NCBI RefSeq assembly: GCF_003030345.1
Contig: NZ_CP028158.1
Coordinates: 5,456,001-5,520,000 of the forward strand
Origin: Plantactinospora sp. BC1
GTDB lineage: Bacteria; Actinomycetota; Actinomycetes; Mycobacteriales; Micromonosporaceae
Length of the DNA stretch: 64,000 bases
Direction of reading: 5' to 3'
The position numbers and the translations under genes are program-made. Numbering within the stretch: position 1 is the stretch's first letter; each line of letters opens with the position of its first letter. Below, one piece after another: positions 30,756-62,513 of the stretch. The notes below the pieces were generated by a model, which saw only the letters and a list, made by a program, of their open reading frames with translations, was not told the DNA's origin and searched no databases.

Positions 30756-31022
30756 GTGGCGTTCGAGGCGCCGCGTTCGGTGACGGAGCGGGTGTTGGCG
30801 GGGTTGTGGGTGGAGTTGTTGGGGGTGGACCGGGTCGGGGTGCACGACAACTTCTTCGAACTCGGCGGACACTCACTGCTGATGATGCAGTTGTTGTGGC
30901 GACTACAGGAACAGTTCGGTGCCGAGGTGCCACTCGAACTGCTCTTCGAGGCGAGTACGGTCGCCGAACTCGCCGCGGCCCTCGACGACCAGGCAATGTC
31001 GGCCGCACGGCCGACCGACTGA
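30756..31022 (+). CDS. Free-standing peptidyl carrier protein
   Basis: 88 residues. [12 protein letters not shown] contains the phosphopantetheine Ser (S40). The preceding SVTERVLAGLWVELLGVDRVGV and following VPLELLFEASTVAELAAAL are those of a PCP cut out of an NRPS module. It could carry an amino acid for one of the stand-alone or terminal condensation domains. Leu codons TTG cluster in the first half (four in residues 14-22), unlike neighbouring genes. The GTG at 30756 overlaps its own GGAGGT, so the start is uncertain; a frameshift could join it to the proline-rich reading from ATG 30680. Confidence 0.85.
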   Translation: MAFEAPRSVTERVLAGLWVELLGVDRVGVHDNFFELGGHSLLMMQLLWRLQEQFGAEVPLELLFEASTVAELAAALDDQAMSAARPTD

Positions 31023-31075
31023 CCCACCGACAACGCGAGCCGATCCGCCCATCGCGCGGGCGGAGGCCGCGTGCT

Positions 31076-31104
31076 GCACAACTGGGGAGTTCCTGCGGTT
31101 GCAC
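31076..31104. promoter_or_regulatory. StrR-like inverted repeat, site 1
   Basis: GCACAACTG, 11 bases, CGGTTGCAC. The layout equals the published StrR-family target (GTTCGACTG-N11-CAGTCGAAC), with the core ACTG-N11-CGGT kept. It lies 117 bases upstream of the first PhyH gene. Related sites are at 41400, 42521 and 49989. Confidence 0.4.
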
Positions 31105-31220
31105 GCCGAGTCCGGGTGAATTCCACGCCCTGGCTGCCCTCGCGGAAGTTCGCTATACCTATGGCACACCGGCGGCCCGTCGCGTCCGGAGACAGGACGC
31201 GCATGGAGAGGAGCACCGGC

Positions 31221-32159
31221 ATGGAATCGGCATTCGCATCCGAGGTACCGCTGACGGACGAAGAGCGGTCGCGGCTGGCCGACGACGGATATCTCGTACT
31301 GCGTGGCGTCCTCCCGGACGACGCACTGCAACCGGTCCGGGACGCGCTCGCCGCGGTCGTCGACCGGATGGCGCGGCAGTGGCGGGACGAGGGGCTCATC
31401 GAGCAGTTGCACGAGGACGCCCCGTTCACCACCCGGTGGTGGCTGATCCGCCAGCAGCTGCCGGCACTGCGCCCGGTGACCTGGCGCCGGGTGCTGGTCA
31501 GTGAGGCGATGTACCGGCTGTGGCGGCGCCCTGAGCTGACCGGCCGGATGCGGAGCTGGCTCGGCGACGAACTCTGGGCGCACGACACCTGGAACGGCCG
31601 TCCGCGCGAGCCGTGGGCACCGGTCCAGAAGATCGGCTGGCACCAGGACGCGTACTACCTGCGGGGCTGGGAGCCGGCCGACGGCAACATCCTGACCTGC
31701 TGGATTCCGCTGGTGCCGGTCGACGCCCGGGCCGGTTGCCTCCAGATCCTGCCGGGCTCACACCGGCACGGCGTGATCCCGCCGGAGTTCGACGAGTTCC
31801 GCAACAAGAACGTCTCGGTCGAGCGGCTCGGCCACATCGAGCCGGTCACCCTGCCGACCGTGCCGGGCGACGTGGTGATCTTCACCGAGAGCACGGTCCA
31901 CCAGGCGCTGCCGAACGAGTCCGAGGGTGTGCGCTGGACCGTGGACGTACGGTTCGGCGCGGAGAGCCCGGCCATGCGGCGCAAGGCCCGAGGCGGGTAC
32001 CTCTGCCGGACGGCCGGCGACCCCGGCCGGATCGAGAGCTACGACGAGTGGGCGGCCAAGTACGACCCGCGCACCGGGGCGATGGCCGCACAGCTGCGCG
32101 CCATCGACGCGGCCGCGATGCGCAGCGGAAGCATGGCCCGGGACATCAGCACCTACTGA
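31221..32159 (+). CDS. PhyH-family Fe(II)/2-oxoglutarate dioxygenase 1
   Basis: 312 residues of the phytanoyl-CoA dioxygenase family. The iron-binding facial triad is complete: HQD at H141/D143 (GWHQDAYY) and H227 (STVHQALPN); the following Arg of VRWTVDV (near 237) should bind 2-oxoglutarate. A hydroxylation of an amino acid, sugar or peptide-bound residue is expected. ATG 31221 is preferred because GAGAGGAG lies 7 bases upstream; ATG 31203 is an alternative. The gene heads a run with a glycosyltransferase and a formyltransferase. Confidence 0.87.
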   Translation: MESAFASEVPLTDEERSRLADDGYLVLRGVLPDDALQPVRDALAAVVDRMARQWRDEGLIEQLHEDAPFTTRWWLIRQQLPALRPVTWRRVLVSEAMYRLWRRPELTGRMRSWLGDELWAHDTWNGRPREPWAPVQKIGWHQDAYYLRGWEPADGNILTCWIPLVPVDARAGCLQILPGSHRHGVIPPEFDEFRNKNVSVERLGHIEPVTLPTVPGDVVIFTESTVHQALPNESEGVRWTVDVRFGAESPAMRRKARGGYLCRTAGDPGRIESYDEWAAKYDPRTGAMAAQLRAIDAAAMRSGSMARDISTY

Positions 32160-32175
32160 CGGAACTGGGGGTTTC

Positions 32176-33393
32176 GTGGCCAACATAGCCGTGGCCAGCC
32201 TGGGCTCACGCGGAGACCTCTTTCCGCTGCTCGGGATCGGGCGGTCGCTGCGCGACCGGGGCCACCGGGTCACCGTCTTCGAATACTCGGAGTACGCGGA
32301 CGACGTCACCCGGACCAACCTGCGGTTCGCCCCGCTGGGCACCGGCAGCGCCTGCCAGGAGGTCTTCGAGAACTCGGGAGAGACGTCCCAGGCACTGTCC
32401 CAGTTGATCCGCCGGGTGGCGCTGCCGACCGCGGCCGAGGCGGCCCGCCGGATCGTCGCCGAGGGACCCTTCGACGTCGTGATCGCCAACCACTTCCAGT
32501 ACGGCGGCCAGCTCGCCGCCGAACTGCTGGGCGTACCGCTGATCTCGGTGACCGGGGTCGACATCGTCGAGCTGTACTATCCGCCGGCCGGCGCCTCGGC
32601 CGAGGAGCGTGCCCTGGCCGAGCGCACGCTGCGGCTGGTGGACCGGCTCGGCACACCGCCGCTGAACGCCATCCGGCGCGAGCTGGGCCTGCCGGAGCGG
32701 CCCCACGCCAGCACCCTCGGCAGCCTCTCCGACGACGCCGTTCTGGTGATCGTCTCCGAGCTGTTCCTCTCGGGTACCGATTCCTGGCCCGACCATTTCC
32801 GCATCGCCGGGTACCCGGCGTACGAGGGCAGCGACGGGCTGGCGGTGCCGCCACGGGTGCAGCGCTTCGTCGACCGTACCGACCTGGGCCCACTGGTCAT
32901 CTGCACCCTGGGGGACAGCTGGGCCAACGACTACCCGCCGACCTGTGCCCACCTCGCCCGGCTGGCGCAGCGGCTCCGGTTCCGGGTGCTCTACCTCGTC
33001 TGCCGGGGCCGGGTCGACGCCGAGGGCGAGCACTGCCTGGTCCACCAGTTCGCCCCGCTGTCCCGGCTGTTGCCGCAGGCGAGGGCGATCGTGCACCACG
33101 CCGGCCGGGGCAGCCTGCTCACCGGGATGCGGGCGGGCGTGCCGGCGCTGATGATCCCGCACTGGCTCGACGGCTTCGAGAACGCCCGCCGGGCCGAGCG
33201 GCTCGGCGTCGGTCGGGTGGTGGCGCCGGACCTGGACCCGGCGGCGGTGAGCCGGGCGATCACCGAGCTCCTGGGCGACGAGGCGTACCACGTCGCGGCC
33301 AGAGCGGCCGCCGCCCGCCTCGCCGAGGACCCCGATCCGGGACGGGTCGCCGAGGAACTCGTGCTCGGCACGGTCGGGTCGCGGTCGTGGTGA
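32176..33393 (+). CDS. GT1 glycosyltransferase 1
   Basis: 405 residues of the GT-B fold, in the EryCIII/MGT group. The N-terminus ANIAVASLGSRGDLFPLLGIGRSLRDRGHRVTVF is the acceptor-domain start; the nucleotide-sugar site near the C-terminus reads IVHHAGRGSLLTGMRAGVPALMIPHWLDGFENARRAERLGVG. This site, with its HHAGRG motif, is typical of transferases for TDP- or UDP-sugars onto natural products. GTG start at 32176. It precedes a formyltransferase with a four-base overlap. Confidence 0.88.
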   Translation: MANIAVASLGSRGDLFPLLGIGRSLRDRGHRVTVFEYSEYADDVTRTNLRFAPLGTGSACQEVFENSGETSQALSQLIRRVALPTAAEAARRIVAEGPFDVVIANHFQYGGQLAAELLGVPLISVTGVDIVELYYPPAGASAEERALAERTLRLVDRLGTPPLNAIRRELGLPERPHASTLGSLSDDAVLVIVSELFLSGTDSWPDHFRIAGYPAYEGSDGLAVPPRVQRFVDRTDLGPLVICTLGDSWANDYPPTCAHLARLAQRLRFRVLYLVCRGRVDAEGEHCLVHQFAPLSRLLPQARAIVHHAGRGSLLTGMRAGVPALMIPHWLDGFENARRAERLGVGRVVAPDLDPAAVSRAITELLGDEAYHVAARAAAARLAEDPDPGRVAEELVLGTVGSRSW

Positions 33394-34247
33394 GCGCGGA
33401 ACCGCCGATGCGGGTGGCGATCGGCGGCCGTGGCTGGCTGCCGGTACGGGCCGCCCGGCTGCTCGGCTCACTGGTCGCGGCCGGCGCGCTGGAGGCCCGG
33501 ATCGAGGTGGTGCGCAACGACGGCGACCCGGGACGGGACACCTGGATGCCCTCGCTGGCGGCCCTCGCCCAGCGGCGTGGCTGGCGGGTGCACCGCACCG
33601 CGGAGACGGCCGGGCTCGGGCCACGGGACGTCTTCCTGTCGTTGCAGCACGACGTGATCGTGGACTGCGCCCGGCTCGGCGGTGCCGCCGCCTACAACCT
33701 GCACTTCGCGCTCCTGCCGCACTACCGGGGCAGCCTGACCTCGCTGCTGCCGATCCGCCGGGGCGAGAGCCGGGTGGGTGTCACCCTGCACGTGTTGGCG
33801 CCGTCGGTCGACGCCGGGCCGGTGATCGCGACCCGCGCCTTCGAGCTGCCACCCTTCACGACCGCGTACGACCTGTTCCAGACCTACCACCGGTACGGGT
33901 TCGAGCTGCTCAAGGAGCATCTGGAGGCGTTGCTGCACGGCACGGTCACCGCCACCGCGCAGGACGACTCCGCCGCGACCACGTTCTACCGCAGCTCGGT
34001 CGACTTCACCGACCTGGAGGTGAGCGACTTCGACCGCGACGCCGAGCAGGTGCGGGACTGGTGTCGCTCGCTCATCTTCCCGCCGATCCAGCTGCCGACG
34101 TACCGGGGCCGGCGGGTCGGCTCCTGCTACGTGCTGCGCTGGAACGGCGTCGCCGCCGCGCCCGGCACCGTCCTCGACGAGGATCCCGACCAGGTGGTCG
34201 TGGCCTGCCGGCGTGACCTGGTGTGCCTGGAGTTCGCCACCGACTGA
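33390..34247 (+). CDS. Formyltransferase, sugar or amino-acid N-formyl type
   Basis: 285 residues of the methionyl-tRNA formyltransferase-like fold. The catalytic Asn-x-His is in AAYNLHFALLPHYRG (near 104) and the catalytic Asp in APSVDAGPV (near 140), so the Asn/His/Asp set is intact. It transfers a formyl group from 10-formyl-tetrahydrofolate to an amine. The C-terminal part (PPIQLPTYRGRRVGSCYVLRWNG) is not the tRNA-binding domain, so a metabolite is the substrate. With the DegT aminotransferase at 61413 it could make a formamido sugar; formylation of a peptide or diaminobutyrate amine is also possible. GTGA overlap with the glycosyltransferase stop. Confidence 0.83.
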   Translation: MSAEPPMRVAIGGRGWLPVRAARLLGSLVAAGALEARIEVVRNDGDPGRDTWMPSLAALAQRRGWRVHRTAETAGLGPRDVFLSLQHDVIVDCARLGGAAAYNLHFALLPHYRGSLTSLLPIRRGESRVGVTLHVLAPSVDAGPVIATRAFELPPFTTAYDLFQTYHRYGFELLKEHLEALLHGTVTATAQDDSAATTFYRSSVDFTDLEVSDFDRDAEQVRDWCRSLIFPPIQLPTYRGRRVGSCYVLRWNGVAAAPGTVLDEDPDQVVVACRRDLVCLEFATD

Positions 34248-34299
34248 CCGGTACGGCCGTGCCGCGCCACCACGTGCCGACCGCGCCGACCGTGCCCCG

Positions 34300-35424
34300 T
34301 CAGGCCAGCACGTCGAGCGGGCCGGCGGTGGCGGCCCGGGTACGCAGCGGGTCGAAGCGCCGCAGCGGGGCCGGGGTCCGACCCGACGAGATCGCCAGGG
34401 CGATCGCCTCGGTCAGCGGCGGTGCCAGTTTGAAGCCCCGACCGCCGAAGCCGTAGGCGACGAGCAGCCCCTCCCCGACCGGCCCGATGTAGGGCTGGCC
34501 GTCCCCGGTGAGGTCGAACTCGGACTCGACGACCAGCCGTGGCCGGGGCAGGGCCCGGTCCAGCCGGGTGGTCGCGGCGGCCCGGAGCGCGTCCAGGAAG
34601 GACCGGCCGCGCGCCTCGGTGCGGAGCGTCCCCAGCAGGCCCCCGCGAACCGGGCGCAGCAGCACGTCGTGCACCAGGTCCACGACGGCCGGCAGGGCAC
34701 CGTGCGGGGCGCCGGAGCGGGCACCGCCGGCCTCGGGGAGGTCGGGGAAGAGGCCGAGGCTGACCGGCTGCCGGTGGATCCGGCGCCGGGTGGCCGGATC
34801 GGGCAGCAGCGCCGGAGTGGCCGCGCCGGCCGCCAGCAGCACCACCGAGGCGTCCGAGGCGGGCCCGTCGGCGGTGCGGAGCCGCCAGCCGTCGCCGATC
34901 CGGTCCAGCGCGCGTACCCGGGTCAGCCGGAGCGCACCGCCCGCCCGCAGGAAGGCCCGGACCAGGGAGAGCAGCACGACCCGTGGGTCGGCGCAGCCGG
35001 CGTCGGGCTCGTACCAGGCCACGCCGGCCCCCGGGTCGTACCCGCCGGGGACCTCGGCCCGGTCGCACCGCCGCGGCGGGGTCCCGGAACGCCCGGCGAC
35101 GGCCCGGCCGGCCCGGGTCGCCGCCTCGGCGGCCTCCGCCGGGGTGACCACGACGACGCCGCAGCGCAGCAGGGCGGCCAGTGCCGGCGGCACCTGGTCG
35201 CTCCACCGTCGGTACCAGGAGAGCCCCTCGGTGGCCAGCTCCGGCTCGTCGCAGAGCGTCCGGAGCACCGCGGCCGACCCGGCGGTGGTGCCACCGACCA
35301 GCCGCTCGGCCAGCAGCAGCACCCGGTGGCCGGCAGCCTGGAGCCGCCACGCGGTGAGCGCCCCGATGATGCCGGCGCCGACCACCGCGACGTCGGCCCG
35401 TCCGGTACGCCGGTCCAGCGCCAT
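34300..35424 (-). CDS. FAD-dependent oxidoreductase, DAO family
   Basis: 374 residues. The dinucleotide-binding motif VAVVGAGIIGALTAWRLQAAGHRVLLLAE is at the N-terminus and the FAD-contacting TGDGQPYIGPVGEGLLVAYGFGGRGFKLAPPLTEAIA near the C-terminus, as in glycine oxidase and sarcosine oxidase relatives. It likely oxidises an amine or amino acid to an imine with H2O2 release. ATG 35424 has GGGGAGGA 4 bases upstream. It is on the opposite strand to its neighbours and divergent from the SDR gene, so it has its own promoter in 35425-35561. Confidence 0.85.
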   Translation of the reverse strand: MALDRRTGRADVAVVGAGIIGALTAWRLQAAGHRVLLLAERLVGGTTAGSAAVLRTLCDEPELATEGLSWYRRWSDQVPPALAALLRCGVVVVTPAEAAEAATRAGRAVAGRSGTPPRRCDRAEVPGGYDPGAGVAWYEPDAGCADPRVVLLSLVRAFLRAGGALRLTRVRALDRIGDGWRLRTADGPASDASVVLLAAGAATPALLPDPATRRRIHRQPVSLGLFPDLPEAGGARSGAPHGALPAVVDLVHDVLLRPVRGGLLGTLRTEARGRSFLDALRAAATTRLDRALPRPRLVVESEFDLTGDGQPYIGPVGEGLLVAYGFGGRGFKLAPPLTEAIALAISSGRTPAPLRRFDPLRTRAATAGPLDVLA

Positions 35425-35561
35425 CGGATCCTCCCCACGTCGAACCCTGGCCGTCGCACCGGCCACTGAGCAGAATGCGGGTTGCCGCGACTGTCGACAA
35501 TCGCATCGGTGGTGTTCAGCATGGTGATTCCGGCCCGACCCGGTGCTCCGGTGGGGTGGCC

Positions 35562-36512
35562 GTGAGCCGGGTGGTCGTGCTCGGCGGCACGGGATTCGTC
35601 GGCGGGGCGATCGCCGCTCTCCTCGGCCCGGGCGGTCGACCGGAGCCCGGGGTGGTGGCCGTCGGACTGCCGGGCAGCGGAGCGGCGGTCCCGCGCGGCG
35701 TGCCGGTGGTCGAGCGCGACCTGCTCGCCGACCCGGCGTCGGGCGAGGACCTGCTCCGGGGTGCCGACGCGGTGGTCTACGCGCTCGCGCCGGCCGGGCC
35801 GCGCCGTACCGCCGGGGAGCGGATGGTCGAGGCGGCCGGCCGGCTCGCCTCGGCGGCGGCCCGGGCCGGGGTACGTCGCTGGGTGCAGGTGAGCAACGTC
35901 AGCGTCTACGGTCCGGGCGACGGCTGGGTCGAGGACGACACCCCGGCCGATCCGCGGAATCCGCTCGGCGAGGCGACGGTGCGGATGGAGGAGACGGTAC
36001 GGCGGAGGCTGGCGCCCGGGCCGACCCTCGGCACCTTCCTGCGGGCCGGACCGGTCTACGCGGAGGACCCGGAGCGGACCGGGGTGTCGGCGTCCTATGT
36101 GGACCCGGGACTGAACTGGCTGAGCTTCGTACGCCGGGACGACCTCGCCGGCGCCGTCCGGTTGGCGCTGGCCGGGAAGCTGCCCGAGGTGTGCGTGGTC
36201 GCCGACGGGGAGCCGCTGCGGGCGGTCGAGGCGGCCCGGCTCGCCGCCCGGTGGCGGGGGTGTGCGCCGCGACCCGTACCCGAGGCCACCGCGGCCCGGT
36301 TCGGCGCCGACGCGTACGCCGTGCTGACCTCGTCGGTACGACTGCGCCCGGTGGCACTGCTGGCGGCCGGATGGCGCCCCTGCGCACCGTTGCGGGCGGC
36401 GACGCCGCACCCGCACCCGGCCGGCTCAGCAGAGCAGCCGCCCCGCTCAGCGCAGCCCTCGGCCAGCGCAGCACAGGGCTCAGCGCAGGGCGGATTCGAG
36501 GGCCGGCCGTAG
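35562..36512 (+). CDS. Atypical SDR, NAD-dependent epimerase-like
   Basis: 316 residues of the extended/atypical short-chain dehydrogenase fold. The NAD(P) loop GGTGFVGGAIAALL is at residues 8-21 and VSNVSVYGPGDGWVEDDTP in the middle. At the place of the catalytic YxxxK the sequence reads LGEAT, so Tyr and Lys are absent, as in YeeZ-like atypical SDRs. Classical epimerase or reductase chemistry is therefore uncertain. The last 35 residues are Pro/Ala/Gln/Ser-rich and overlap, tail to tail, the end of the kinase gene on the other strand (36480-36512). GTG start. Confidence 0.75.
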   Translation: MSRVVVLGGTGFVGGAIAALLGPGGRPEPGVVAVGLPGSGAAVPRGVPVVERDLLADPASGEDLLRGADAVVYALAPAGPRRTAGERMVEAAGRLASAAARAGVRRWVQVSNVSVYGPGDGWVEDDTPADPRNPLGEATVRMEETVRRRLAPGPTLGTFLRAGPVYAEDPERTGVSASYVDPGLNWLSFVRRDDLAGAVRLALAGKLPEVCVVADGEPLRAVEAARLAARWRGCAPRPVPEATAARFGADAYAVLTSSVRLRPVALLAAGWRPCAPLRAATPHPHPAGSAEQPPRSAQPSASAAQGSAQGGFEGRP

Positions 36513-37211
36513 CCGCCTGACCAGCCGCAGCGACCGCTCGCAGTAGGCCAGGTGGCTCGGTGGCGTGTCGCCCTGCGGTGCGTCGGTGCCGGCGAGCGAG
36601 CGGATCCCGTCCCGGAGCCGCTCCAGCCGCGCCTCGATCAGGTCGACCAGCCGGGACCGGTCCGTCAGCCCGTACGCGTCGCAGATCAGTCGTAGCCGGC
36701 GCGGCCGGTCCGGCACCGGCACGTCCGGATTGAGCGGGACGAAACTGAAGGCCGTCCAGGCCAGGTCCCAGCCGCGTGACCCGGGGGCGGCACCGTCGAA
36801 GTCGATCATCGCCTGGGGGAGTCCGTCGACGAAGACGCAGTTGTACACCGCGAAGTCGTTGTGGCAGACCACCTCCGCCTCCGGGTCACCCCGCAGCTCC
36901 GGGGGCTCCTGGAGGAAGGGATCCCAGCCGGGCAGCGTCCGCAGCGCGGTACCGGCCACCGCGTCGTGGTACCGGCGCAGCAGCCGGGCCGCCTCGACCA
37001 GCGCCCGGTCGTCGCCGACCCAGCGCCACGCCCGGGGAACCTCACCCGGCAGATAGCTGAGCAGCTCGCGGCCCTGCCCGTCGACGCCGAGCAGTCGCGG
37101 TGACCGGTCGAACCCGACCGTCTCGAGGTGGGAGAGCAGCGCGTGCACCGGCGGGCTCCAGAAGCCCGTCCGGCGCCGTACGACGTCACCGCGCTGCTCC
37201 ACCAGCGACAT
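36480..37211 (-). CDS. APH-family phosphotransferase within cluster
   Basis: 243 residues from ATG 37211. The kinase catalytic loop EVVCHNDFAVYNCVFVDG and the metal site QAMIDFDGAAPGSRGWDLAW are intact. In an antibiotic cluster such a kinase is a candidate for self-protection by phosphorylating the product, or for a biosynthetic phosphorylation. The reading frame extends upstream (DADWQRLSGGT looks like the family's first strand), so the true start may be earlier; a CTG at 37277 would overlap the ACP stop as CTGA. It follows the ACP gene on the same strand. Confidence 0.78.
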   Translation of the reverse strand: MSLVEQRGDVVRRRTGFWSPPVHALLSHLETVGFDRSPRLLGVDGQGRELLSYLPGEVPRAWRWVGDDRALVEAARLLRRYHDAVAGTALRTLPGWDPFLQEPPELRGDPEAEVVCHNDFAVYNCVFVDGLPQAMIDFDGAAPGSRGWDLAWTAFSFVPLNPDVPVPDRPRRLRLICDAYGLTDRSRLVDLIEARLERLRDGIRSLAGTDAPQGDTPPSHLAYCERSLRLVRRLRPALESALR

Positions 37212-37273
37212 CGTGCCGCCGGAGAGCCGCTGCCAGTCGGCGTCGGTGGCGGAGGCCGGCCGCCGGTCGCCGG

Positions 37274-37528
37274 TCAGGAGGAGCCGACCTGCGCGCGAGC
37301 GGACTCGACGTACCCGACGATGCCGGACCGGCTGGCCCACCAGTCGGCTCCCAGCGCCTCGTCCTGGAATGGAATGGCGAGGTTCTGCTCCAGCAGGACG
37401 AGAAGTTCCAGCTTCTGCATGGAATCGATCGACCCGGTCAGGTCCTCGTCGTCCGGCGGCAAATACCCGAGGACCTCGCGCAACGCGTTGTCGACCTGTT
37501 CCGTCACGCCAACCATCTTGTCCGTCAT
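37274..37528 (-). CDS. Free-standing acyl carrier protein
   Basis: 84 residues. The phosphopantetheine attachment Ser is S36 in TGSIDSMQKLELLVLLEQ, followed by a helix typical of carrier proteins. The DSM rather than GGHS context marks it as an ACP or D-alanine carrier-like protein, unlike the NRPS-type PCP at 30756. GGAAGG stands 7 bases before ATG 37528. It may carry an acyl or amino-acyl unit activated by the stand-alone adenylating enzyme at 43461. It is transcribed divergently from the FkbM gene. Confidence 0.85.
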   Translation of the reverse strand: MTDKMVGVTEQVDNALREVLGYLPPDDEDLTGSIDSMQKLELLVLLEQNLAIPFQDEALGADWWASRSGIVGYVESARAQVGSS

Positions 37529-37699: not shown

Positions 37700-39166
37700 G
37701 TGTACGGCATGTTGCCTGACTATTTATCGGAGCTTCGTCCACACACCACGGAAGACGGTCTGCGGGTCTTGTCGGCCCGGATATCGCCGGATCGGTTGTC
37801 GACCGGGGCGGCGGCGCTCATTGGCCTGATCGCCGATCGGGTCGCCGACAACTCGCTGTCGCTGATCGGCGACCACCCCGTATTCGCCAACACGCCGTAC
37901 GAGGCCGAAGTCGTACTGGCCGAGTTCGCCGCCGACGGCGGATATCTGCACCGGATGCGCCCGCTGCCACCCCGGCCGGTGGTTCTCGACATCGGTGCGC
38001 ACATCGGCCTCTTCTCGCTCGACGTCCTGCGCCGCCGCCCCGACGCCCGGGTGATCGCGGTCGAACCGTTCGGGTCGTCGCACGCGGCCCTGCTCCGCAA
38101 CCTCGCGCTGCACCGGGGCCGGACGGAGCCGGTCGCGGTCCGCGCCGTGGCGGCCCAGCAGCTCGGCCGGGCCGAGATCGTCGGCTGTCGCGGTGGCAGC
38201 ATGCTCGCCGCCACCACGGCCGGCGAGGACGCCCGGACGCTGGCCGAAACCGCCGCGGTGCTCGCCCGGTCGCTGCCGAGGATGCTGCGGCACGGCCCGT
38301 GGGGACCGCAGCTGGCCGAGGCGGTGGCGACGGACCTGATCGACCAGCTCTTCGCCCCGGTACGGTCCGTGGTGCCACAGGTGACCGTCTCGACGCTGAT
38401 CGAGGAGCACGCGATCCGCCGGCTGTCGTTGCTGAAGGTGGACGTCGAGGGTGACGAGGTGCGGGTGCTGGCCGGGGTGGATCCGGCGCACTGGCCGCTC
38501 GTCGACGCGGTGGTGGTGGAGGCGGACGCCACGACGGTACCGGCCGTCTGCGCCATGCTGGACCGGCACGGGCTGACCCCGGTGGTCAGCGGGTCGCCGC
38601 AGGCTCCCGGCGCGTTCGCCCGGCAGAGCCGGATCGTCCGGGCGGAGCGCGGCGGGCCGCCGGGTGACGACCGGGCGGACCCGCCGGCAGCCGGAGCCGC
38701 AGCGCCGGAGTCCCGGCACGCCGGTGCGGTCGCCGAGATCGCCGCGATCTTCGCGCGGCTGCATCAGCTCTCCCGGGGGTACTGGCCGACCGGACACGTG
38801 CTCGTCGACGCGTACGCGACGCCGTACGCCGGGCCGCTCTCCGAGCCCTGGCGGGAGCGGGACTTCCGGCTCGGGCTGTCGTACGGCCGGGCGTGGGCCC
38901 GGCACCTGCTGTCGGCGTACCCGCCGCCCGGCCCGGCGGACGACGGTCTCCCGGCCGCGCTGACCCGGTTGGTCGGCGGGGACTGGGGTTCGGTGGCGCC
39001 GCTGCTGGCCCGGCACCCGGTCGCCGACGTGGTGGCCGCCCGGATGGCCGCGCTGCAACTGGTCCACCGAGCGGTCCGGTTGCCGCTCGACCCCGGTGCC
39101 GGATCCGACGTGCGGATCCGGACCGAAGCTGACCGGCCCGGCGGGTCGGGGGAGGAGAGGACATGA
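37700..39166 (+). CDS. FkbM-family methyltransferase, C-terminal extension
   Basis: 488 residues. The Rossmann SAM site RPVVLDIGAHIGLFSLDVL starts near residue 93 and the later motif LSLLKVDVEGDEVRVLAGV (near 250) is diagnostic of FkbM O-methyltransferases. Beyond about residue 330 lies a 150-residue helical extension (AEIAAIFARLHQLSRGYWPTG and following) that I do not recognise; it might be a separate domain for substrate binding. It should methylate a hydroxyl of a sugar or peptide. GTG 37700 has GGAGG 6 bases upstream. The stop overlaps the MbtH gene by four bases. Confidence 0.83.
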   Translation: MYGMLPDYLSELRPHTTEDGLRVLSARISPDRLSTGAAALIGLIADRVADNSLSLIGDHPVFANTPYEAEVVLAEFAADGGYLHRMRPLPPRPVVLDIGAHIGLFSLDVLRRRPDARVIAVEPFGSSHAALLRNLALHRGRTEPVAVRAVAAQQLGRAEIVGCRGGSMLAATTAGEDARTLAETAAVLARSLPRMLRHGPWGPQLAEAVATDLIDQLFAPVRSVVPQVTVSTLIEEHAIRRLSLLKVDVEGDEVRVLAGVDPAHWPLVDAVVVEADATTVPAVCAMLDRHGLTPVVSGSPQAPGAFARQSRIVRAERGGPPGDDRADPPAAGAAAPESRHAGAVAEIAAIFARLHQLSRGYWPTGHVLVDAYATPYAGPLSEPWRERDFRLGLSYGRAWARHLLSAYPPPGPADDGLPAALTRLVGGDWGSVAPLLARHPVADVVAARMAALQLVHRAVRLPLDPGAGSDVRIRTEADRPGGSGEERT

Positions 39167-39387
39167 GCGAGGTCGAGTCGCCGCGACAGCGCGGCTACGA
39201 GGTGGTCCGCAACCACGAGGGCCAGTACTCGATCTTTCCGCAGGGTCGGCCGGTGCCGCCCGGCTGGGAACTGGTCGGCCGCGCCGGCTCCGAGGAGGAG
39301 TGCCTCGGCTACATCGAAGAGGTGTGGACGGACATGACCCCGCGCTCGGTACGGCGCCGCCTCGACGAGGCGTCCCGGGGCCGGTAG
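39163..39387 (+). CDS. MbtH-family protein
   Basis: 74 residues with the full signature: NHEGQYSIFP, PPGWELVGRAGSEEECLGYIEEVWTDMTPRSVR. MbtH proteins bind adenylation domains and are needed for folding or activity of many NRPS A domains. It should act on the A domains of the synthetase at 51493. ATGA overlap with the FkbM gene. Confidence 0.95.
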   Translation: MSEVESPRQRGYEVVRNHEGQYSIFPQGRPVPPGWELVGRAGSEEECLGYIEEVWTDMTPRSVRRRLDEASRGR

Positions 39388-39423
39388 GCCGGACGGATGC
39401 CCCGTCGGCGCGGTGCCTACCGG
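39381..39423. terminator. Bidirectional hairpin across two stop codons
   Basis: CCGGTAGGC (39381-39389) pairs with GCCTACCGG (39415-39423). One arm includes the MbtH stop TAG, the other the stop of the convergent PLP-enzyme gene. The loop is 25 bases and can fold further. A shared terminator for both transcripts is the likely role. Confidence 0.45.
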
Positions 39424-40523: not shown

Positions 40524-40535
40524 CCGGCCCGCCGG

Positions 40536-41327: not shown

Positions 41328-41399
41328 GCTGGCCAGTCTCATCCACGAATCGTCCGGCCGGCAACCATCTGCGTGAACGGCGTACCGTGCGAGTCCGCA

Positions 41400-41428
41400 C
41401 TCGAACTGTGGTCGGTGGACGGTCACGC
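41400..41428. promoter_or_regulatory. StrR-like inverted repeat, weak site
   Basis: CTCGAACTG, 11 bases, CGGTCACGC, keeping the ACTG-N11-CGGT core of the site at 31076. It lies between the divergent PhyH and oxidoreductase genes. Outer positions are poorly conserved, so this is the least certain member. Confidence 0.25.
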
Positions 41429-41483
41429 AAATATGCTGCGCTGTCATGTGTGGGGACAACCGTCGAAGACGTACGGAGTCGTG

Positions 41484-42518: not shown

Positions 42519-42520
42519 GT

Positions 42521-42548: not shown

Positions 42549-42657
42549 GCTCCTCCGGTGGCACTACCGCCTCCCGGAATCGTAAGAAACAATCGCAGCG
42601 CGTGCGGTCGCGGTGCGCCGCCCATTCTCGCCCATTCTCGGCCCGGAGGTAGGGACA

Positions 42658-48713: not shown

Positions 48714-48720
48714 CCGTTGC

Positions 48721-54400: not shown

Positions 54401-57400
54401 AGTTCCACGACCTGGCGGTGCTGCCGTTCCGGGTCGAGCAGCGTACCGCGAAGTTCGAACTCACCCTGGCGGTCACCGAGTCCGCCGCCGGGCTGCGGGG
54501 CAGCTGGGAGTACAGCACCGAACTCTTCGACGAGGCGATGGTCCGGCGGATGTCGGCGTACTACCAGGCGATCCTGCGGGCGGTGGTGCGCGACCCCGGG
54601 CAGCCGGTCGGCGCCCTGCCCGTCGCCGAGGAGTCACCGGCCGGACCGGCGGTGTACGGCCCGGTCGTCGAGATCCCGCCCCGGTGCGCGCACGAGCTGG
54701 TGGCCGAGCAGGCGGCCCGTACCCCGGACGCCACGGCGGTCACCTCCGGCGGCCGGTCGGTGACGTACGCGGAACTGGACCGTCGGGCCGCCGCGCTGGC
54801 CGCCCGGCTCCGTCGACGGGGCGTCGGGCCCGGGAGCCTGGTCGGGCTCTATCTGGAGCGCGGCGTGGATCTCGTGGTGGCCCTGCTCGGAGTCTGGAAG
54901 GCCGGCGGTGCGTACGTCCCGCTGGACCCCGCCGTCCCGGCGGAGCGGGTGGCCCAGGCCCTGTCGGACACCAAGGCACCGATCGTGGTGACCCAGCGCG
55001 CCCTGGCCGGAGCCCTACCCGACGGCGGCCCCGCACCGCTCCTGCTCGCCGACGCCGACGCCGATGCCGGCGCGCTGGGTGCCGATGCCGATGCCGACGC
55101 CGGCGCGGCCGACGCCGGAGCCGAAGCCGGGACCCACGCCGTCCTCGGCGCCGGGCCGGCCGACCCCGCCGACCTCGCCTACGTGATCTTCACCTCGGGC
55201 TCCACCGGACGACCGAAGGGGGTGCAGGTCAGCCACGCGGCGGTGGTGAACCTGCTGACCTCCTTCGCCGCACTGCTGCGCCCGGAACCCCGGGACGCCC
55301 TGGTCGCGGTGACCACCCTCTCCTTCGACATCTCCGTGCTGGAGTTGCTGCTGCCGCTGGTCACCGGGGGACGGGTGATCGTCGCGCAGCGCGCGCAGAC
55401 CACCGACCCGCTGGCGCTGCACGCCCTGGTGCGCGACGAGGGCGGCACCGTCATGCAGGCCACTCCGGCGACCTGGCGGATGCTGACCGAGTCGGTCGGG
55501 GTGCCGCCGGGGCTGCGGATCCGGCTCTGCGGCGGCGAGCGACTGCCGGCGGACCTGGCCGGCGAACTGCTCGCCCCGGAGAGCACGCTCTGGAACGTGT
55601 ACGGCCCGACCGAGACCACGGTGTGGTCCACGGCCGGCGTGGTGGACGGTACGGCGGCACCGATCACGATCGGCGCCCCGATCGCGAACACCGGCCTCTA
55701 CGTGCTGGACTCGCGGCTGGCCCCGACGCCGGTCGGCGTGGTCGGCGAGATCTACCTCGGCGGTGCCGGCGTGGCGCGCGGCTATCACGGCCAGCCCGGG
55801 TTGACCGCGGCGCGATTCCGGCCCGACCCGTTCGCGGCTGCGCCGGGGCGGCGGATGTACCGCACCGGCGACCTGGGCCGGCGACGCCCGGACGGGACCG
55901 TCGAGTTCCTCGGCCGGGTCGACCAGCAGATCAAGATCCGTGGACACCGGGTGGAGCCGGCCGAGATCGAGCTGGCGCTGCTCGGGCACCCGGCGGTACG
56001 CCAGGCCGTGGTGGTGGGCCGGACCGACGACGCGGGCGGGGTACGGCTGGTGGCGTACCTGGTCGGCGACGGTGGCCGGCTGCCCGACCCGCCGGCCCTG
56101 CGCGACCACCTGCGGCACCGGCTGCCCGACTACATGGTGCCGGCCGCCTTCGTCGACCTGCCGGCGCTGCCGTTGACCCCGAACGGCAAGCTCGACCGGG
56201 GGGCACTGCCGGCGCCCGACCAGAGTGCCGGGCAGTCCACCGGATACGCCCCGCCGTCCACCCCCACCCAGGAACTCCTGGCCGGGATCTGGGCGGACGT
56301 GCTGGGGCTGGACGACGTCGGGATCGAGGACAACTTCTTCGAGCTGGGTGGCGACTCGATCCTCGGTATCCAGGTCGTCTCCCGGGCCCGTGACGCGGGT
56401 CTCTGGCTCGTCCCCGCCCAGGTGTTCGAGTTCCAGACCGTGGCCGAGCTGGCCAGGATCGTCGACGCCGACGCGGCGCCGACCGTCGTCCGCGGCGCGG
56501 CGGCCGGCCCGGTCCCGCTCACTCCGGGGCAGCGGGACCTGCTCGACCCGGCCGGGACCCCGGCGGTCCGGGCCGTCGCCGTCGAACTGCCGCCCGGACT
56601 CGGCGAGCCGGCCGTGGCGGAGGTGCTGGCCGCACTCGCCGAGCAGCACGACATGCTGCGGGCCCGGCTGCTGGTCGACGCGCAGGGCCGGCGGCTGTCG
56701 GTGCCGGCCGTCGGGCCGGTGCCGCTGTCGATCCGACAGGTCGACGGCGGTGCCACGGATCCCTCGTCGGCGCTGCGCGACGCCGCCGAGACGCTCGCCG
56801 CGACGATCGTCGAGACCAGCACCGCCGCGCCGCCCGACGGCACCCCGAGCGGTCCGCTGGTCCGGGCCGCCCTGGTCGGCGGGTCCTCCGGAGACCGCCA
56901 CCTGGTGCTCGTGGCGCTGCGCCGGCTGCTCGACCGGGCCTCCTGGCGGATCGTCACGGCCGACATCGGCACCCTGTGCGCGCGGATCGCCGCCGGCCGG
57001 CCGGTTCGGCTGCCGGAGCCGACCACCTCCTACCGGTACTGGGCCGAGCGGATCAGCCGCTACGCGGAATCCGGCGCGGCCCGGGCCGAGGCCGACTACT
57101 GGCTGATGGCCGACGAGCCCGCCCCGGCGCTGCCCCCGGACGGCCCCGACCCGACGGCCCGCCCGGAGACCGTCCCCGCCCGGTCGGTGGTGGCGGAGCT
57201 GAGCGCGGCCGAAACCGCCGGGCTGACCGGTGTCGCGGCCGAGTGGTTCGGGGTGACCCCGGCGGAACTGGTACTCGCCGCCCTGGTCCTGACGGCGACG
57301 GCCGAGACCCGGGGCGGCGCGCTCGCGGTACGCCTGCGCGACGACGGACGCGACTCGCCGTTCCCGGAGGTCGACCTCAGCCGCACGGTCGGGCGGCTGA

Positions 57401-59208
57401 CCGGCAGTTGTCCGGTACGGCTGCCGGCGGTCGCCGGTGACATCACCGCCACCGCCCGGGCGGTGGCCCGGGAGCTGCGCCGGGTTCCCCGCGCCGGCCT
57501 GGCGTACGGGGTGCTGCGGCACCTGTCACCCGACGAGGAGCTGCGGGCCCGACTGGCCCGGGTCGATGCCGAGACGGTCGGGTTCGCGTTCGACGGCGTG
57601 CCGCTCGACGCCGGTGTCCGGACGGTGCCGCTCGGCCCCGCCGAGCCGGTACCGGGGCTCGACGTCCGGTGCGAGGTGGCCGCCGGTCGGCTGCGGATCA
57701 CCTGGGCGTACCCGGCCGGCCGGCACCGGGCGGAGACGATCCAACGGCTCTGCGCGAACCTCGTCGACCGGCTGCGGGCCGCCCTGGCCCAGGGGCTGGC
57801 CGGCTGCGTCGACGGGCCCGGCAGACCGGCGCGACACCCGCTGGCGACCCTGACCGGCGCCCAGCTCGACGACGTCTGCGCCGAGCCGGGCGTACGCGAG
57901 GTGTACCCGCTCACCCCCGCCCAGCACGGGATGCTCTTCCACTCCCTCTACAGCCCCGGCGAGGGCATGTACCTCAACCAGACCAGCTTCACCCTGACCG
58001 GACAGTTCCACCCGGAACTGTTCCGGACCGCGCTGACGGCCGTGGCCCGCCGGCACGACGCGCTGCGTACGGCGATCCGCTGGCGGCGGCTGGCCGAACC
58101 GCACCAGGTGGTGCACGCCGAGGTGGTGCCGCCGCTGACCGTCGTCGACCGGTCCGGGACGGCGTCGTCGTCGTTCCGGATCGCCGACATCCTCGCCGAG
58201 GACGGCCGGCTCGACCTGGAGTTCTCCACCGCACCGCTGTACCGGGTCACCGCCGTCCGGCTCGCCGACGACCTGCACCACCTGGTCTGGACCAACCACC
58301 ACGCGATCATGGACGGCTGGAGCAGCAGCCTGGTGTTCACCGAGTGCTTCCAGGCGTACGCGAACCTGCTGGCCGGCCGACCCGTGGACGACGAGCCCGC
58401 GGCACCGTACCGGGACTACGTACGGTGGATCCAGACCCGGACCCCCGGGCCGGAGCGACGGTTCTGGCGCGAGCTGCTGGCCGACCTCCCGCACCCGGCC
58501 GGCCTGCCGAAACCCGTCGCCGACGCCGGCACGCCGGCCCGGACCGGCCCGGAGGGCGCCGGCCCGTCGGCGGAACGCGTGCTGCGGCGGGAACTCTCCG
58601 CCGAGTTCACCACCGAGGTGGAACTCTTCTGCAAGCGTCGCCGGCTGACCCTCGGCGCCCTGGTCTACGGCGCCTGGGCGGTGGCGCTCAGCCGGGTCAC
58701 CGGCGACCGCGACCTCGTCTTCGGGGTGATCCTCTCCGGCCGGTCGGCGCCGCTTCCGGGCATCGAGCGGATGGCCGGGCTCCTCTCGACCACCCTGCCG
58801 ATGCGGGTACGGCTGCCCCGGCACGACGACGTGGCGACCTTCCTCAGGGAGGTGCAGTCGACGCTGATCGGGCTGGGCCGGTTCGAGTACATGTCGGTGG
58901 CCGAGGCGCAGCGGGCGGCCGGGTCACCGCCGGGCCGGCCGCTCTTCGACACCACCGTCGGGGTGCAGAACTTCCCGCTGTTCAAGGGCGGACGGTACCC
59001 GGCCGGGGAGACCCTGTCGGTGCGCCGGGGGCCGGGAGCCGGCCGGAACAACTATCCGCTCACCGTCGAGGTGCACCCGGACGCCCGGCTCGGGCTGCGC
59101 GTCCGGTTCGACCCGGCGACGGTGGCGGAGGCGGCGGCGCGGCAGGTCACCGACGAGTTCTGTGCCGCCCTCACCCGGCTGGTGGCGGAGGATCCGCGTG
59201 CCTGGTGA
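51493..59208 (+). CDS. Bimodular NRPS: A-PCP-C-A-PCP-E(inactive)-C
   Basis: 2571 residues. A1 (1-510), PCP1 (Ser 558 in LGGHSLT), C2 (about 610-1040), A2 (about 1050-1560), PCP2 (Ser 1622 in LGGDSILG), an epimerization-type domain (about 1670-2120) and C3 (about 2137-2571). Hand-read codes: A1 D-F-T-K-V-G-E-V-G-K, close to Asn (DLTKLGEVGK); A2 D-I-L-Q-L-G-V-V-W-K, close to Gly (DILQLGLIWK). C2 has HHIAVDA (H742, H743, D747), the final Gly replaced by Ala. The E domain reads [12 protein letters not shown] where HHxxxDG is expected and RDDGRD for EGHGRE, so it should be dead. C3 is intact (HHAIMDGW, H2269/H2270) with [17 protein letters not shown], typical of domains after epimerases. No thioesterase: release or transfer must be by C3. 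Confidence 0.93.
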
Positions 59209-59254
59209 GCTGTTGGTGAGGACGGGTGGTCAGGTCGACGAGGGCGGGGGCAGC

Positions 59255-60535
59255 GTGGACGTACTGGAGACGTACGAGTCGAGGGTCCGGTACTACTGCC
59301 GGCGGTGGCCGGCGGTCTTCGCCCGGGCCGAGGGCGCCCGGCTGTACGACGAGGACGGCCGGGAGTACCTGGACTTCTTCGCCGGCGCGGCGACGCTCAA
59401 CTACGGTCACAACCCGCCGGAGCTGGTCGAGGCGGTGATCGACTACCTGCGCTCCGGCGGGCTGGTGCACGGGCTGGACACGGCGACGGTGGCCAAGCGC
59501 GAGTTCGTCCGGGCACTCTCCGACGTGGTACTGGCGCCGCGCGGGCTCGACTACCGGATCCAGTTCACCGGGCCGACCGGCACCAGCGCGGTCGAGGCGG
59601 CGCTCCGGGTGGCCCGGAAGGCGACCGGGCGACGCCGGGTGGTCTGCCTCACCGGCGCCTACCACGGGATGACGGTCGACTCGATCGCGGTCTCCGACAT
59701 CTCCGGGCCGGCCGGGCTGCCCACCCTGGACCCGGCCGGGGTGACCCGGGTGCCGCACGAGATGGACGCGCCCGGCACCGAGCACGCGCTGGCCGCCCTG
59801 GCGAGCGCGCTCGACGGCCCGGACGGCGCACCGGCGGCGTTCGTCGTCGAGACCCTCCAGGGCGAGGGCGGCGTCCGGCCGCTGTCGGCGCGGTACCTGA
59901 GCGAGGCACAGGCGCTCTGCCGGCGTACCGGGACGATCCTGATCGTGGACGACATCCAGGCCGGCGGTGGGCGTACCGGACCGTTCTTCTCGTTCGAGTC
60001 CGCCGGGCTGCGGCCCGACGTCGTCTGCCTGTCGAAGTCGATCAGCGGCCTCGGGCTTCCGCTCAGCCTGGTACTCATCGCTCCGGAGCTGGACGTGTGG
60101 GCGCCCGGCGAGCACTCCGGAACGTTCCGGGGCAACCAGCTCGCCTTCGTCACCGGCGCGCTGGCGATCAGGCGGTGGTGGCGTACCGAGCACCTGCGCC
60201 GGGAGGTGGAGCGCAAGTCGGCGCTGCTGGCCGAGGAACTGTCCACTCTGGACGACGACGGCGAGTGCCTGGCCGGGCCGGTGCGGGGGCGCGGACTGCT
60301 GCTCGGGCTGCCCTGCCGGAGTCGCGGGGTGGCGGACCTGGTCGCCCGGTACGCCTTCGAGCAGGGCCTGCTGCTGGAGACCTGCGGTCGGGACGGCGAG
60401 GTGTTGAAGCTCTGCCCGCCGCTGACGGTGACCGACGCGGAGCTGCGGCGCGGCGTCGGCACGCTGGCGGCGGCGCTGCGCCGGGCGGGTGACCGGCACG
60501 GCGCCGGCCAGGTGGTGGCGGTACGACCCGGCTGA
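59255..60535 (+). CDS. Diaminobutyrate-type class III aminotransferase
   Basis: 426 residues of the fold type I, EctB/Dat group. The PLP Lys is K261 in VVCLSKSISGLGLPLSLVL; ILIVDDIQAGGGRTGPFFSFE and APGEHSGTFRGNQLAFVTGAL are diagnostic of diaminobutyrate-2-oxoglutarate aminotransferases. It should make L-2,4-diaminobutyrate from aspartate semialdehyde and glutamate. No ectA or ectC lies nearby, so ectoine is not the product; the diaminobutyrate is probably a building block. GTG 59255 follows a GAGGGCGGGGG stretch; GTG 59198, overlapping the NRPS stop, is an alternative. Confidence 0.88.
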   Translation: MDVLETYESRVRYYCRRWPAVFARAEGARLYDEDGREYLDFFAGAATLNYGHNPPELVEAVIDYLRSGGLVHGLDTATVAKREFVRALSDVVLAPRGLDYRIQFTGPTGTSAVEAALRVARKATGRRRVVCLTGAYHGMTVDSIAVSDISGPAGLPTLDPAGVTRVPHEMDAPGTEHALAALASALDGPDGAPAAFVVETLQGEGGVRPLSARYLSEAQALCRRTGTILIVDDIQAGGGRTGPFFSFESAGLRPDVVCLSKSISGLGLPLSLVLIAPELDVWAPGEHSGTFRGNQLAFVTGALAIRRWWRTEHLRREVERKSALLAEELSTLDDDGECLAGPVRGRGLLLGLPCRSRGVADLVARYAFEQGLLLETCGRDGEVLKLCPPLTVTDAELRRGVGTLAAALRRAGDRHGAGQVVAVRPG

Positions 60536-60666
60536 CCCGCCGGGCGCGGCCGTAACGGGATCCCGGGGCCGGGGACGGGGCCGGCAGTCGATCCATCGCC
60601 TCCGCCGGCAGGCGAGGCATTGGCTCCACCGGCCCGAGGAGAGTCGTATCGAGGGGGGAGACCCGA

Positions 60667-61416
60667 ATGTCGTCGTCGCTGACCGCCGGATCGGCCGGCC
60701 GGCTGGCCGGTGCGCCGGGAACCGTCTGCGAGCTGCTGGGGCGTGGCGCGGCCAGCACCGGGCCGCCGGCGCCGGCCGGCCGGTACGAGCAGAGCGCGCG
60801 CGGGTACGGGCGGGGCTTCGCCGAGCAGGGCTATCCGGACGGGTCACTGGTGCTGATCGCCCTGCGCCGGCCGGCGGAGATCGTGGCGCTCACCCTCGGG
60901 GCGTGGTGGGCCGGGCACCAGGTCGCCTACGTCGCCGAGTCGGACCATGGTCGCCGGGACCGGATCGCGCTCGACCTCGGTGCGGCACTACAGGTCTGCG
61001 ACCCGGGGGACATCGTCGACGAGGAGCACTTCCGGCATCGCGACGTGCCGGCCGTACCCCCGGAGAACCTGGCCCTGCCGCCCGCCTCGTGGCCGGCTCG
61101 CTGTCGGCCCTCCGATCCCGCCCTGACGACCTGGCGCGGCTTTCCGGCGGTGCCGACCGGCACGTGGTCGCACGCCGAGCTCATCGAGGCGGCGTCCGCC
61201 CCGGACGGCGACACCGACAACGGCCGGGACACCGACGACTACGGCCGGGACACCGCCAACGGCCGGGACGGCGACGTCGGCCCGGACGGGACGCTCATCG
61301 TGCCCGCCGACGCCCCGGCCGAGCAGGTGCTGCGGGCCCTGCTGCGGTCGCTGCTCACCGGGGCCGGCCCGGCCCCGGACGGCGCCGCGCGGCACCGGCC
61401 GGGAGCCCCCCGATGA
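60667..61416 (+). CDS. Truncated adenylation-domain relative
   Basis: 249 residues that align by eye with the N-terminal half of the stand-alone adenylating enzyme at 43461: GTVCELLGRG with GTLAELVCGS, the middle LGAWWAGHQVAYVAESD with AGAWWSGLRVAFTRTD, and ARCRPSDPALTTW with PRCRPSDPALDLL. Where the ATP loop TSGSTGTPK should be, it reads RGFPAVPTGTWSH. All later motifs are missing, so it cannot adenylate. A GGGGGGAG ribosome binding site upstream and an ATGA overlap with the next gene indicate that it is still translated. It is either a decaying relic or a repurposed substrate-binding protein. The region around residues 180-205 holds a short repeat of NGRD and GRDT. Confidence 0.75.
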   Translation: MSSSLTAGSAGRLAGAPGTVCELLGRGAASTGPPAPAGRYEQSARGYGRGFAEQGYPDGSLVLIALRRPAEIVALTLGAWWAGHQVAYVAESDHGRRDRIALDLGAALQVCDPGDIVDEEHFRHRDVPAVPPENLALPPASWPARCRPSDPALTTWRGFPAVPTGTWSHAELIEAASAPDGDTDNGRDTDDYGRDTANGRDGDVGPDGTLIVPADAPAEQVLRALLRSLLTGAGPAPDGAARHRPGAPR

Positions 61417-62513
61417 CGGTGCCCTTCCTGGACCTGCGCGCCGCGTACGCCGAACTCCGCACCGAACTGGACGCCGCCTACGCCCGGGTGCTGGCCTCCG
61501 GGCGGTACGTGCTCGGGCCCGAGACGGAGGCGTTCGAGGCCGAGTTCGCCGCCTTCTGCGGCGCACCGCACTGCGTCACGGTGGGCAGCGGATGCGACGC
61601 GCTGGAACTGGCCCTGCGGGCACTCGACATCGGCGACGGCGACGAGGTCATCGTGCCGTCGCACACCTTCATCGCGACCTGGTTGGCGGTGTCGGCGGCC
61701 GGCGCCCGGCCGGTGCCGGTCGAGCCGGACGAGCGGACCGGGACGATGGACCCGGCCCGGATCGAGGCCGCGATCACCGGTCGGACCAGGGCGATCATGC
61801 CGGTACACCTCTACGGCCACCCGGCCGACCTGGACGGGATCAACGAGGTGGCCGCCAGCCGGGGCCTGGCGGTGCTGGAGGACGCAGCCCAGGCCCACGG
61901 CGCCCGGTACCGTGGCCGTCGGGTGGGCGAGGGTTCGACCGTGGCGGCGTTCAGCTTCTACCCGGGCAAGAACCTCGGCGCGATGGGCGACGGCGGAGCG
62001 GTGCTGACCGCCGACGCCGGCCTGGCCGAGCGGGTACGGCTGCTGCGCAACTACGGCTCGCGGGTCAAGTACCAGCACGAGTTGCGCGGTACGAACTCGC
62101 GGCTCGACGAACTCCAGGCGGCGTTCCTGCGGGTCAAACTGGCCCACCTGCCGGAGTGGAACCGCCGTCGCGCCGAGGTGGCAACGCGGTACCTGACAGA
62201 CCTCGCCGGGCTGCCCGGACTGACACTGCCCGGGGTGGCGTCCTGGGCCGAACCGGTGTGGCACCTCTTCGTGGTCCGGACGGCGGCCCGGGACCGGCTG
62301 CGGGCGGCACTGCACCGGTCCGGCGTGGAGACGATCATCCACTACCCGGTGCCGCCGCACCTCGCCCCGGCCTATGCCGGCCCCGACGTCCCGGCCGGCG
62401 GATACCCGGTCGCCGAACGCCTCGCCGACGAGGTGCTCAGCCTGCCGATCGGCCCGCACCTGTCGGCCGAGCAGGTCAAGACGGTGGTCGCCGCCGTACG
62501 CGCCGGACTGTGA
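61413..62513 (+). CDS. DegT/DnrJ/EryC1 sugar aminotransferase
   Basis: 366 residues, PLP fold type I. The PLP Lys is K186 in FSFYPGKNLGAMGDGGAV; VPSHTFIATWLAVSAAGARPVP and MPVHLYGHPADLDGI are typical. From memory of family members it is closest to TDP-3-oxo-6-deoxyhexose 3-aminotransferases (DesV, TylB, FdtB), so a 3-amino sugar is the likely product. No 4,6-dehydratase or ketoisomerase gene is in the window; these steps must come from elsewhere, unless the Gfo/Idh/MocA oxidoreductase makes the 3-keto substrate directly. Last gene of the NRPS transcript. Confidence 0.9.
   Translation: MTVPFLDLRAAYAELRTELDAAYARVLASGRYVLGPETEAFEAEFAAFCGAPHCVTVGSGCDALELALRALDIGDGDEVIVPSHTFIATWLAVSAAGARPVPVEPDERTGTMDPARIEAAITGRTRAIMPVHLYGHPADLDGINEVAASRGLAVLEDAAQAHGARYRGRRVGEGSTVAAFSFYPGKNLGAMGDGGAVLTADAGLAERVRLLRNYGSRVKYQHELRGTNSRLDELQAAFLRVKLAHLPEWNRRRAEVATRYLTDLAGLPGLTLPGVASWAEPVWHLFVVRTAARDRLRAALHRSGVETIIHYPVPPHLAPAYAGPDVPAGGYPVAERLADEVLSLPIGPHLSAEQVKTVVAAVRAGL

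Follow-up and report, generated by a model that had tools for sequence, protein, structure and literature searches.

We describe an orphan nonribosomal peptide synthetase (NRPS) pathway with an unusual mix of parts, encoded by 23 genes between positions 30756 and 62513 of the window, the whole 64,000-nucleotide stretch of Plantactinospora sp. BC1 DNA that was analysed (positions 5456001-5520000 of a single-contig genome of 8.33 Mb; G+C 74%). The pathway type is familiar, and the locus is not a new kind of system. The initial annotation had read it as a dissociated NRPS cluster whose product would be a short peptide, modified and glycosylated, and this reading is well supported by gene content and domain order: free-standing PCP, adenylating ligase and condensation (C) proteins and an MbtH-like protein are all encoded here.

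Gene content of the cluster

The genes were delineated with a codon-usage path combined with Pfam and NCBIfam scans, as follows (window coordinates, strand, feature, best evidence):

30756..31022, + strand, free PCP with an LGGHS site, the first gene after the synteny break (PF00550, E 4.7e-20)
31116..32159, + strand, PhyH-type Fe/2OG dioxygenase 1 with the HxD..H motif and an uncertain exact start (PF05721, E 2.7e-24 on 31071-32156)
32176..33393, + strand, glycosyltransferase 1, EryCIII/MGT type (PF06722, E 2.3e-20)
33387..34247, + strand, sugar N-formyltransferase (PF00551, E 1.2e-8)
34300..35466, - strand, DAO-family FAD oxidoreductase (PF01266, E 7e-39)
35475..36512, + strand, NAD epimerase/reductase (PF01370, E 1.2e-10)
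36480..37211, - strand, APH-fold kinase with an HND....N motif, candidate for self-protection (PF01636, E 3.8e-10 on 36480-37340)
37274..37528, - strand, free ACP-like protein, 84 aa (PF00550, E 0.094, 13.4 bits, cut-off 20.8)
37700..39166, + strand, FkbM methyltransferase, 488 aa (TIGR01444, 75.5 bits, cut-off 37.7)
39163..39387, + strand, MbtH-like protein (PF03621, E 4.3e-18)
39417..40523, - strand, PLP lyase, diaminopropionate ammonia-lyase type (PF00291, E 5.3e-51)
40536..41447, - strand, PhyH-type dioxygenase 2, HxD..H present (PF05721, E 4.7e-34)
41484..42518, + strand, Gfo/Idh sugar dehydrogenase, EKP motif (PF01408, E 3.7e-23)
42613..43461, + strand, orphan protein, stop codon overlapping the ligase start by one base
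43461..44900, + strand, stand-alone acyl-adenylating ligase (PF00501, E 8.8e-31)
45047..46960, + strand, ABC transporter half 1 (PF00005, E 6.6e-29)
46953..48713, + strand, ABC transporter half 2 (PF00005, E 2.4e-25)
48721..49872, - strand, glycosyltransferase 2 (PF06722, E 2.9e-13)
about 50171-51496, + strand, stand-alone C protein, HHVFVDG, start picked by eye (PF00668, E 2.4e-23)
51493..59208, + strand, NRPS with the order A(Asn-like)-T-C-A(Gly-like)-T-E*(degenerate)-C and no thioesterase (TE) (domain and motif scans)
59255..60535, + strand, EctB-like diaminobutyrate (DABA) aminotransferase, start picked by eye (NF006733, 518 bits, cut-off 438)
60667..61416, + strand, half-length paralogue of the ligase N-terminus, without the C-terminal part (40% identity over 114 aa, E 1e-13)
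61413..62513, + strand, DegT-type sugar aminotransferase (PF01041, E 2.1e-120)

All the gene types named in the initial annotation (PCP, ACP, ligase, C, MbtH, NRPS, tailoring, sugar, ABC and APH) lie within these limits, the ACP being the weakest. For the listed families other than ACP, the Pfam matches exceed the curated cut-offs, so that these assignments are not due to chance. The PALP/PLP lyase, the Gfo/Idh protein, the NAD epimerase, the orphan protein and the half-length ligase paralogue are additions to that list. No match to a regulator or thioesterase family was found among the cluster proteins in the Pfam and NCBIfam scans. The PLP lyase reaches 242 bits against NF006058, under the cut-off of 276, the DABA aminotransferase scores 495 bits against the ectoine EctB equivalog TIGR02407, below the cut-off of 552, and the C-terminal part of the FkbM methyltransferase has no Pfam match.

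Assembly line

The initial annotation listed a bimodular synthetase. An NRPS is present and contains C, A and carrier domains, but its architecture is A-T-C-A-T-E*-C, with a degenerate epimerization (E)-type domain, a terminal C domain and no TE. It begins with an A domain, its first module carries no starter C, and the C protein is encoded separately by a gene whose end overlaps the NRPS start through an ATGA. The best matches of this stand-alone C protein are the C domains of Txo2 and Txo1 (77 and 71 bits), compared with only 34 bits for the C domain of CDA synthetase I, which we take to be of the starter type. Carrier sites of the LGGHS/LGGDS form are present in the synthetase, and in the free ACP-like protein the segment GSIDSMQKLELL resembles a carrier site on inspection by eye. 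The free PCP has no clear loading adenylation domain within the cluster.

With the A4-A6 motifs as anchors, inspection by eye gives the signature D-F-T-K-V-G-E-V-G for A1 and D-I-L-Q-L-G-V-V-W for A2; these presumably correspond to Asn and Gly, respectively. The internal C domain has HHIAVDA where HHxxxDG is expected. The E-type domain aligns with the E domains of PvdL and tyrocidine synthetase and should be inactive because catalytic residues are lost: Leu-Arg stands in place of the HH of HHxxxDG, and in EGHGRE the first Glu position is occupied by Arg. The domain that follows it is a C domain with an HHAIMDG motif, its nearest relatives being C domains of McyB and PvdL. Given that the Gly module is followed by a dead E domain and that the synthetase ends in a C domain instead of a thioesterase, the chain may be handed to the free PCP or to some amine.

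Stand-alone ligase, its half-length paralogue and the orphan protein

The stand-alone ligase has the TSGSTGTPK loop and the A10 lysine, and the Asp of amino-acid activation is missing from the substrate position (by eye). Its nearest relatives are oxalate and malonyl-CoA ligases, and it is too distant from characterized ligases for its acid to be named. The half-length paralogue reaches only E 0.21 against the Pfam AMP-binding profile.

The orphan protein has no Pfam or NCBIfam match, and no PDB entry matches it better than E 0.44. Among 101 relatives it was found in three genomes at E<=1e-3: its own, G083 (32% identity), and G057, where the match (E 0.001) contains an internal stop. The G083 relative, from a genome of the same order, lies in a stretch with G+C of 51% beside a FAD-linked oxidase, with no NRPS gene seen around it (both by eye). 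Across 394 class genomes (best five or six candidates per genome scored for nearly all), only the protein itself was recovered at 1e-5, and there was none in plasmids or viral contigs. The AlphaFold model, folded without an alignment, has a mean pLDDT of 34.5 and no usable fold.

Sugar branch

The presence of genes for a Gfo/Idh protein, a DegT enzyme and a formyltransferase suggests that the sugar is of the 3-formamido type. The formyltransferase aligns with the solved structures 5uij, 4lxq and 4xcz at 101 to 82 bits, and its nearest relatives include WlaRD and TDP-3-aminoquinovose formyltransferase, the tentative assignment to position 3 following the nearest solved relatives only. The DegT enzyme scores 525 bits against 2oga, presumably DesV, whose substrate is a 4,6-dideoxy sugar, and 377 bits against QdtB; here too, position 3 comes from the nearest relative only. 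Matches of both enzymes to named NCBIfam equivalogs fall below the curated cut-offs. A search of the BC1 genome for the FdtA ketoisomerase (PF05523) gave nothing at E<=0.001, and the Gfo/Idh protein is best matched by UDP-GlcNAc 3-dehydrogenase (NF040723; 126 bits, below the cut-off of 450); therefore, it is probably the Gfo/Idh protein that introduces the 3-keto group. A dTDP-glucose dehydratase above the cut-off is encoded elsewhere in the genome.

Cluster boundaries and flanking genes

Of the two edges of the cluster, the left one alone is defined. There, the DNA ceases abruptly to resemble that of sister genomes, at window position 30745 for G003 and 30722 for G002, between a MobA-like gene and the first cluster gene (start 30756). 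Left of the cluster, a PucR gene has a match in four of the six sister genomes, two of which (G003 and G002) were examined. Beyond the break, these two genomes have another region in common, the first genes of which are sigma-factor-like and HrpB-like (by eye). Right-flank proteins up to genome position 5576402 have no match in the 31 kb of G003 past the break, so the picture of a simple insertion was not borne out.

On the right, a PhoX-type alkaline phosphatase adjoins the cluster (window 62677-64000, continuing past the window end); as a speculation, it could pair with the APH-fold kinase by taking off the phosphate that such a kinase adds. Past PhoX and a GIY-YIG gene come a C protein, an A-C protein (the A loop of which looks degenerate), a FAAL, two ACADs, an ACP and a KASIII-like protein, followed further on by an ATP-grasp protein, a LysA-like decarboxylase, a second ACP, a second KAS-like protein, a PPTase, a P450, an SDR and a BVMO-like flavoprotein (second KAS, P450, SDR and BVMO named by eye). 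The region with the FAAL-ACAD-ACAD-ACP-KAS lipid cassette and the two odd C-domain proteins (L114/L115) occupies genome positions 5521645-5542160; the cassette itself begins outside the window, some 9 kb beyond the final gene of the cluster. The ATP-grasp, decarboxylase and carrier set presumably resembles the carrier-decarboxylase set of butirosin-like pathways.

Rarity of the cluster

The formyltransferase was detected only in its own genome, both among 354 family genomes (E<=1e-20) and among 394 class genomes (E<=1e-25), with the best five or six candidates scored for nearly every genome; in plasmids, it matched 18 records, those listed being 28-40% identical and ArnA where annotated. Homologs of the stand-alone C protein were found in 18 of 298 order genomes, its own included (E<=1e-20), with no identity above 33% besides its own gene (five candidates per genome scored in the matches shown), and in six plasmid records at 26-29%. 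As a probe for the cluster, this protein was discarded, given that it reported general C-domain similarity only.

A contig scan with six short peptide patterns from the ligase yielded 294 relatives; of the best 80, 79 were 24-32% identical and one reached 40% over a short segment. When 20 of the 23 cluster proteins (all except the ACP and the two ABC proteins) were compared with these best 80 of 294 loci at E<=1e-15, no locus matched more than four query names and no close relative of the cluster was found. The locus with four names (L066; PCP, A, C and NRPS) is a different NRPS cluster. In a few of these loci there is additionally a single weak match, to the PhyH, Gfo, DegT or aminotransferase query. 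The literature search, in which subscription journals were thinly covered, turned up no cluster of this kind named in titles or abstract openings. We use "unmatched" for this cluster within the family, class and order genomes, contig scan, plasmids and literature searched.

Proposed pathway and alternative explanations

The initial annotation proposed a core of acyl-Asn-Gly linked to a further amine. Of these parts, Asn and Gly are in line with the signature residues. The other parts we infer: the acyl group would follow from a ligase nearest to oxalate and malonyl-CoA ligases, and the amine from the terminal C domain, the free PCP and the DABA aminotransferase; the placement of the sugar is likewise putative.

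In the model that we favor, most parts of the assembly line are separate proteins. The stand-alone ligase, perhaps with the adjoining orphan protein, would load a carboxylic acid on the free ACP, and the stand-alone C protein would couple the acyl group to Asn on the first carrier. Gly would then be added by the internal C domain, the dead E-type domain being perhaps a relic of an epimerizing module that leaves the achiral Gly untouched. The terminal C domain could transfer acyl-Asn-Gly to an amine that is either soluble or part of an amino acid (DABA as the best guess) carried by the free PCP, and this transfer would stand in for thioesterase release. In the sugar branch, C3 of an NDP-hexose would be oxidized by the Gfo/Idh enzyme, aminated by the DegT enzyme and formylated by the formyltransferase, and sugars would be attached by the two glycosyltransferases. 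The PhyH, DAO and FkbM enzymes are predicted to tailor the product, the ABC pair to export it and the APH-fold kinase to protect the producer. In its favor are the domain and family assignments, the degenerate E domain followed by a terminal C, the signature residues, the nearest relatives of the DegT and formyl enzymes together with the missing FdtA, the gene overlaps (orphan protein with ligase, stand-alone C with NRPS) and the left boundary. Against it count the free PCP with no clear loader, the distance of the ligase from characterized enzymes, the low score of the stand-alone C with the CDA domain, the HHIAVDA of the internal C, the below-cut-off matches of the Gfo/Idh, PLP lyase, DegT, formyltransferase and ectoine EctB types, the resemblance of the DegT enzyme to DesV and the weak ACP. 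We give this model as a whole about an even chance of being correct. If it holds, the locus would specify an uncharted peptide natural product, the candidate self-protection kinase within the cluster hinting at antibiotic activity; a small group of separate enzymes would then be available in which to study trans-acting condensation and thioesterase-free release, along with a testable pathway by which a bacterial peptide acquires a formylated amino sugar. It is considerably less likely that the product defines a new class, namely, a short lipo-glycopeptide with an acyl-Asn-Gly-diaminobutyrate core that the terminal C domain, in place of a thioesterase, releases to an amine or a free carrier, with a 3-formamido-3-deoxy sugar from the combined action of Gfo/Idh, DegT and formyltransferase, and with inactivation by a dedicated producer kinase.

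The foremost alternative, possible if rather doubtful, is a larger lipo-glycopeptide supercluster in which the right-hand cassette and the extra C proteins provide an unsaturated fatty acyl group, the ligase of the window being used for a different building block. The lipid cassette may belong to the cluster: a FAAL with ACADs and an ACP is a lipopeptide starter arrangement, and FAAL, two ACADs, ACP and KAS occur here in one run, as in lipopeptide initiation according to PMC9113097. Moreover, there is no complete NRPS module among the scanned proteins of the right-hand region, and none of the six sister genomes has a match at E<=1e-30 to the GIY-YIG gene that lies between the two parts. However, PhoX and GIY-YIG lie on the other strand and part the cassette from the window cluster. 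In addition, a 20-kb slice of another genome (G758) contains five lipid-block genes at 56-67% identity and a sixth at 36%, with no other cluster gene matched save for a generic NRPS match on the FAAL. Relatives of the second ACAD occur in 43 of 354 family genomes, its own included (E<=1e-50), compared with one of 354 for the formyltransferase, and they include four of the six sister genomes as well as a second ACAD pair in the BC1 genome. This spread and the recurrence in G758 indicate that the lipid cassette is a common, portable block, and it may be a neighbor of the cluster rather than a part of it.

Two further alternatives appear less probable still. An antibiotic cluster already known but unrecognized here is improbable: absence from the genomes searched is silent on described compounds of other strains, but the literature search, with its thin subscription coverage, weakly argues against it. 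Slightly less probable again is that the locus makes two products or has partly decayed, the half-length ligase, dead E domain and PCP with no clear loader being remains of a pathway not functional as a whole. The half-length paralogue, the dead E domain and the HHIAVDA of the internal C would fit decay, but the motifs searched for are intact in the PCP, both PhyH enzymes, the formyltransferase, DAO, epimerase, APH, Gfo/Idh and ligase proteins, to which this check was applied. Long frames are also open, and codon bias marks most of 30756-62513 as coding.

Comparison with known systems

Uridyl peptides such as pacidamycin are made by dissociated NRPS pathways with a free PCP, stand-alone A and C proteins and MbtH, and these parts are common to both systems; in contrast to the pacidamycin type, no nucleoside genes were recognized in the cluster in Pfam scans, and amino-sugar, formyl and DABA genes are found instead. 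The sugar branch resembles the GnnA/GnnB (2,3-diaminoglucose) and Qui3N/Fuc3N formyl-sugar pathways, which combine C3 oxidation or ketoisomerization with a DegT 3-aminotransferase and an N-formyltransferase, but it is tied here to an NRPS, in a genome without FdtA.

With the FAAL:ACP:CIII lipopeptides of the friulimicin/daptomycin group, the cluster has in common a putative free ACP (below the Pfam cut-off here), a separate acyl-activating enzyme and an ABC exporter, and friulimicin has Asn at position 1, as does the Asn-like A1 here; unlike these systems, as described in PMC9113097, the cluster encodes neither a FAAL nor a TE, and module 1 lacks a fused starter C. The only FAAL seen lies outside the window, and the synthetase ends in a C domain rather than in the CAT-CATTe termination. 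For corramycin, PMC10996006 reports that a kinase with aminoglycoside phosphotransferases as its closest structural homologues inactivates the peptide in the producer's cluster. Although the BC1 cluster differs from that of corramycin and the role of its kinase is a candidate one, predicted from sequence, the two loci are alike in that an APH-related kinase, ComG in the corramycin case, is encoded inside the peptide cluster (PMC10996006).
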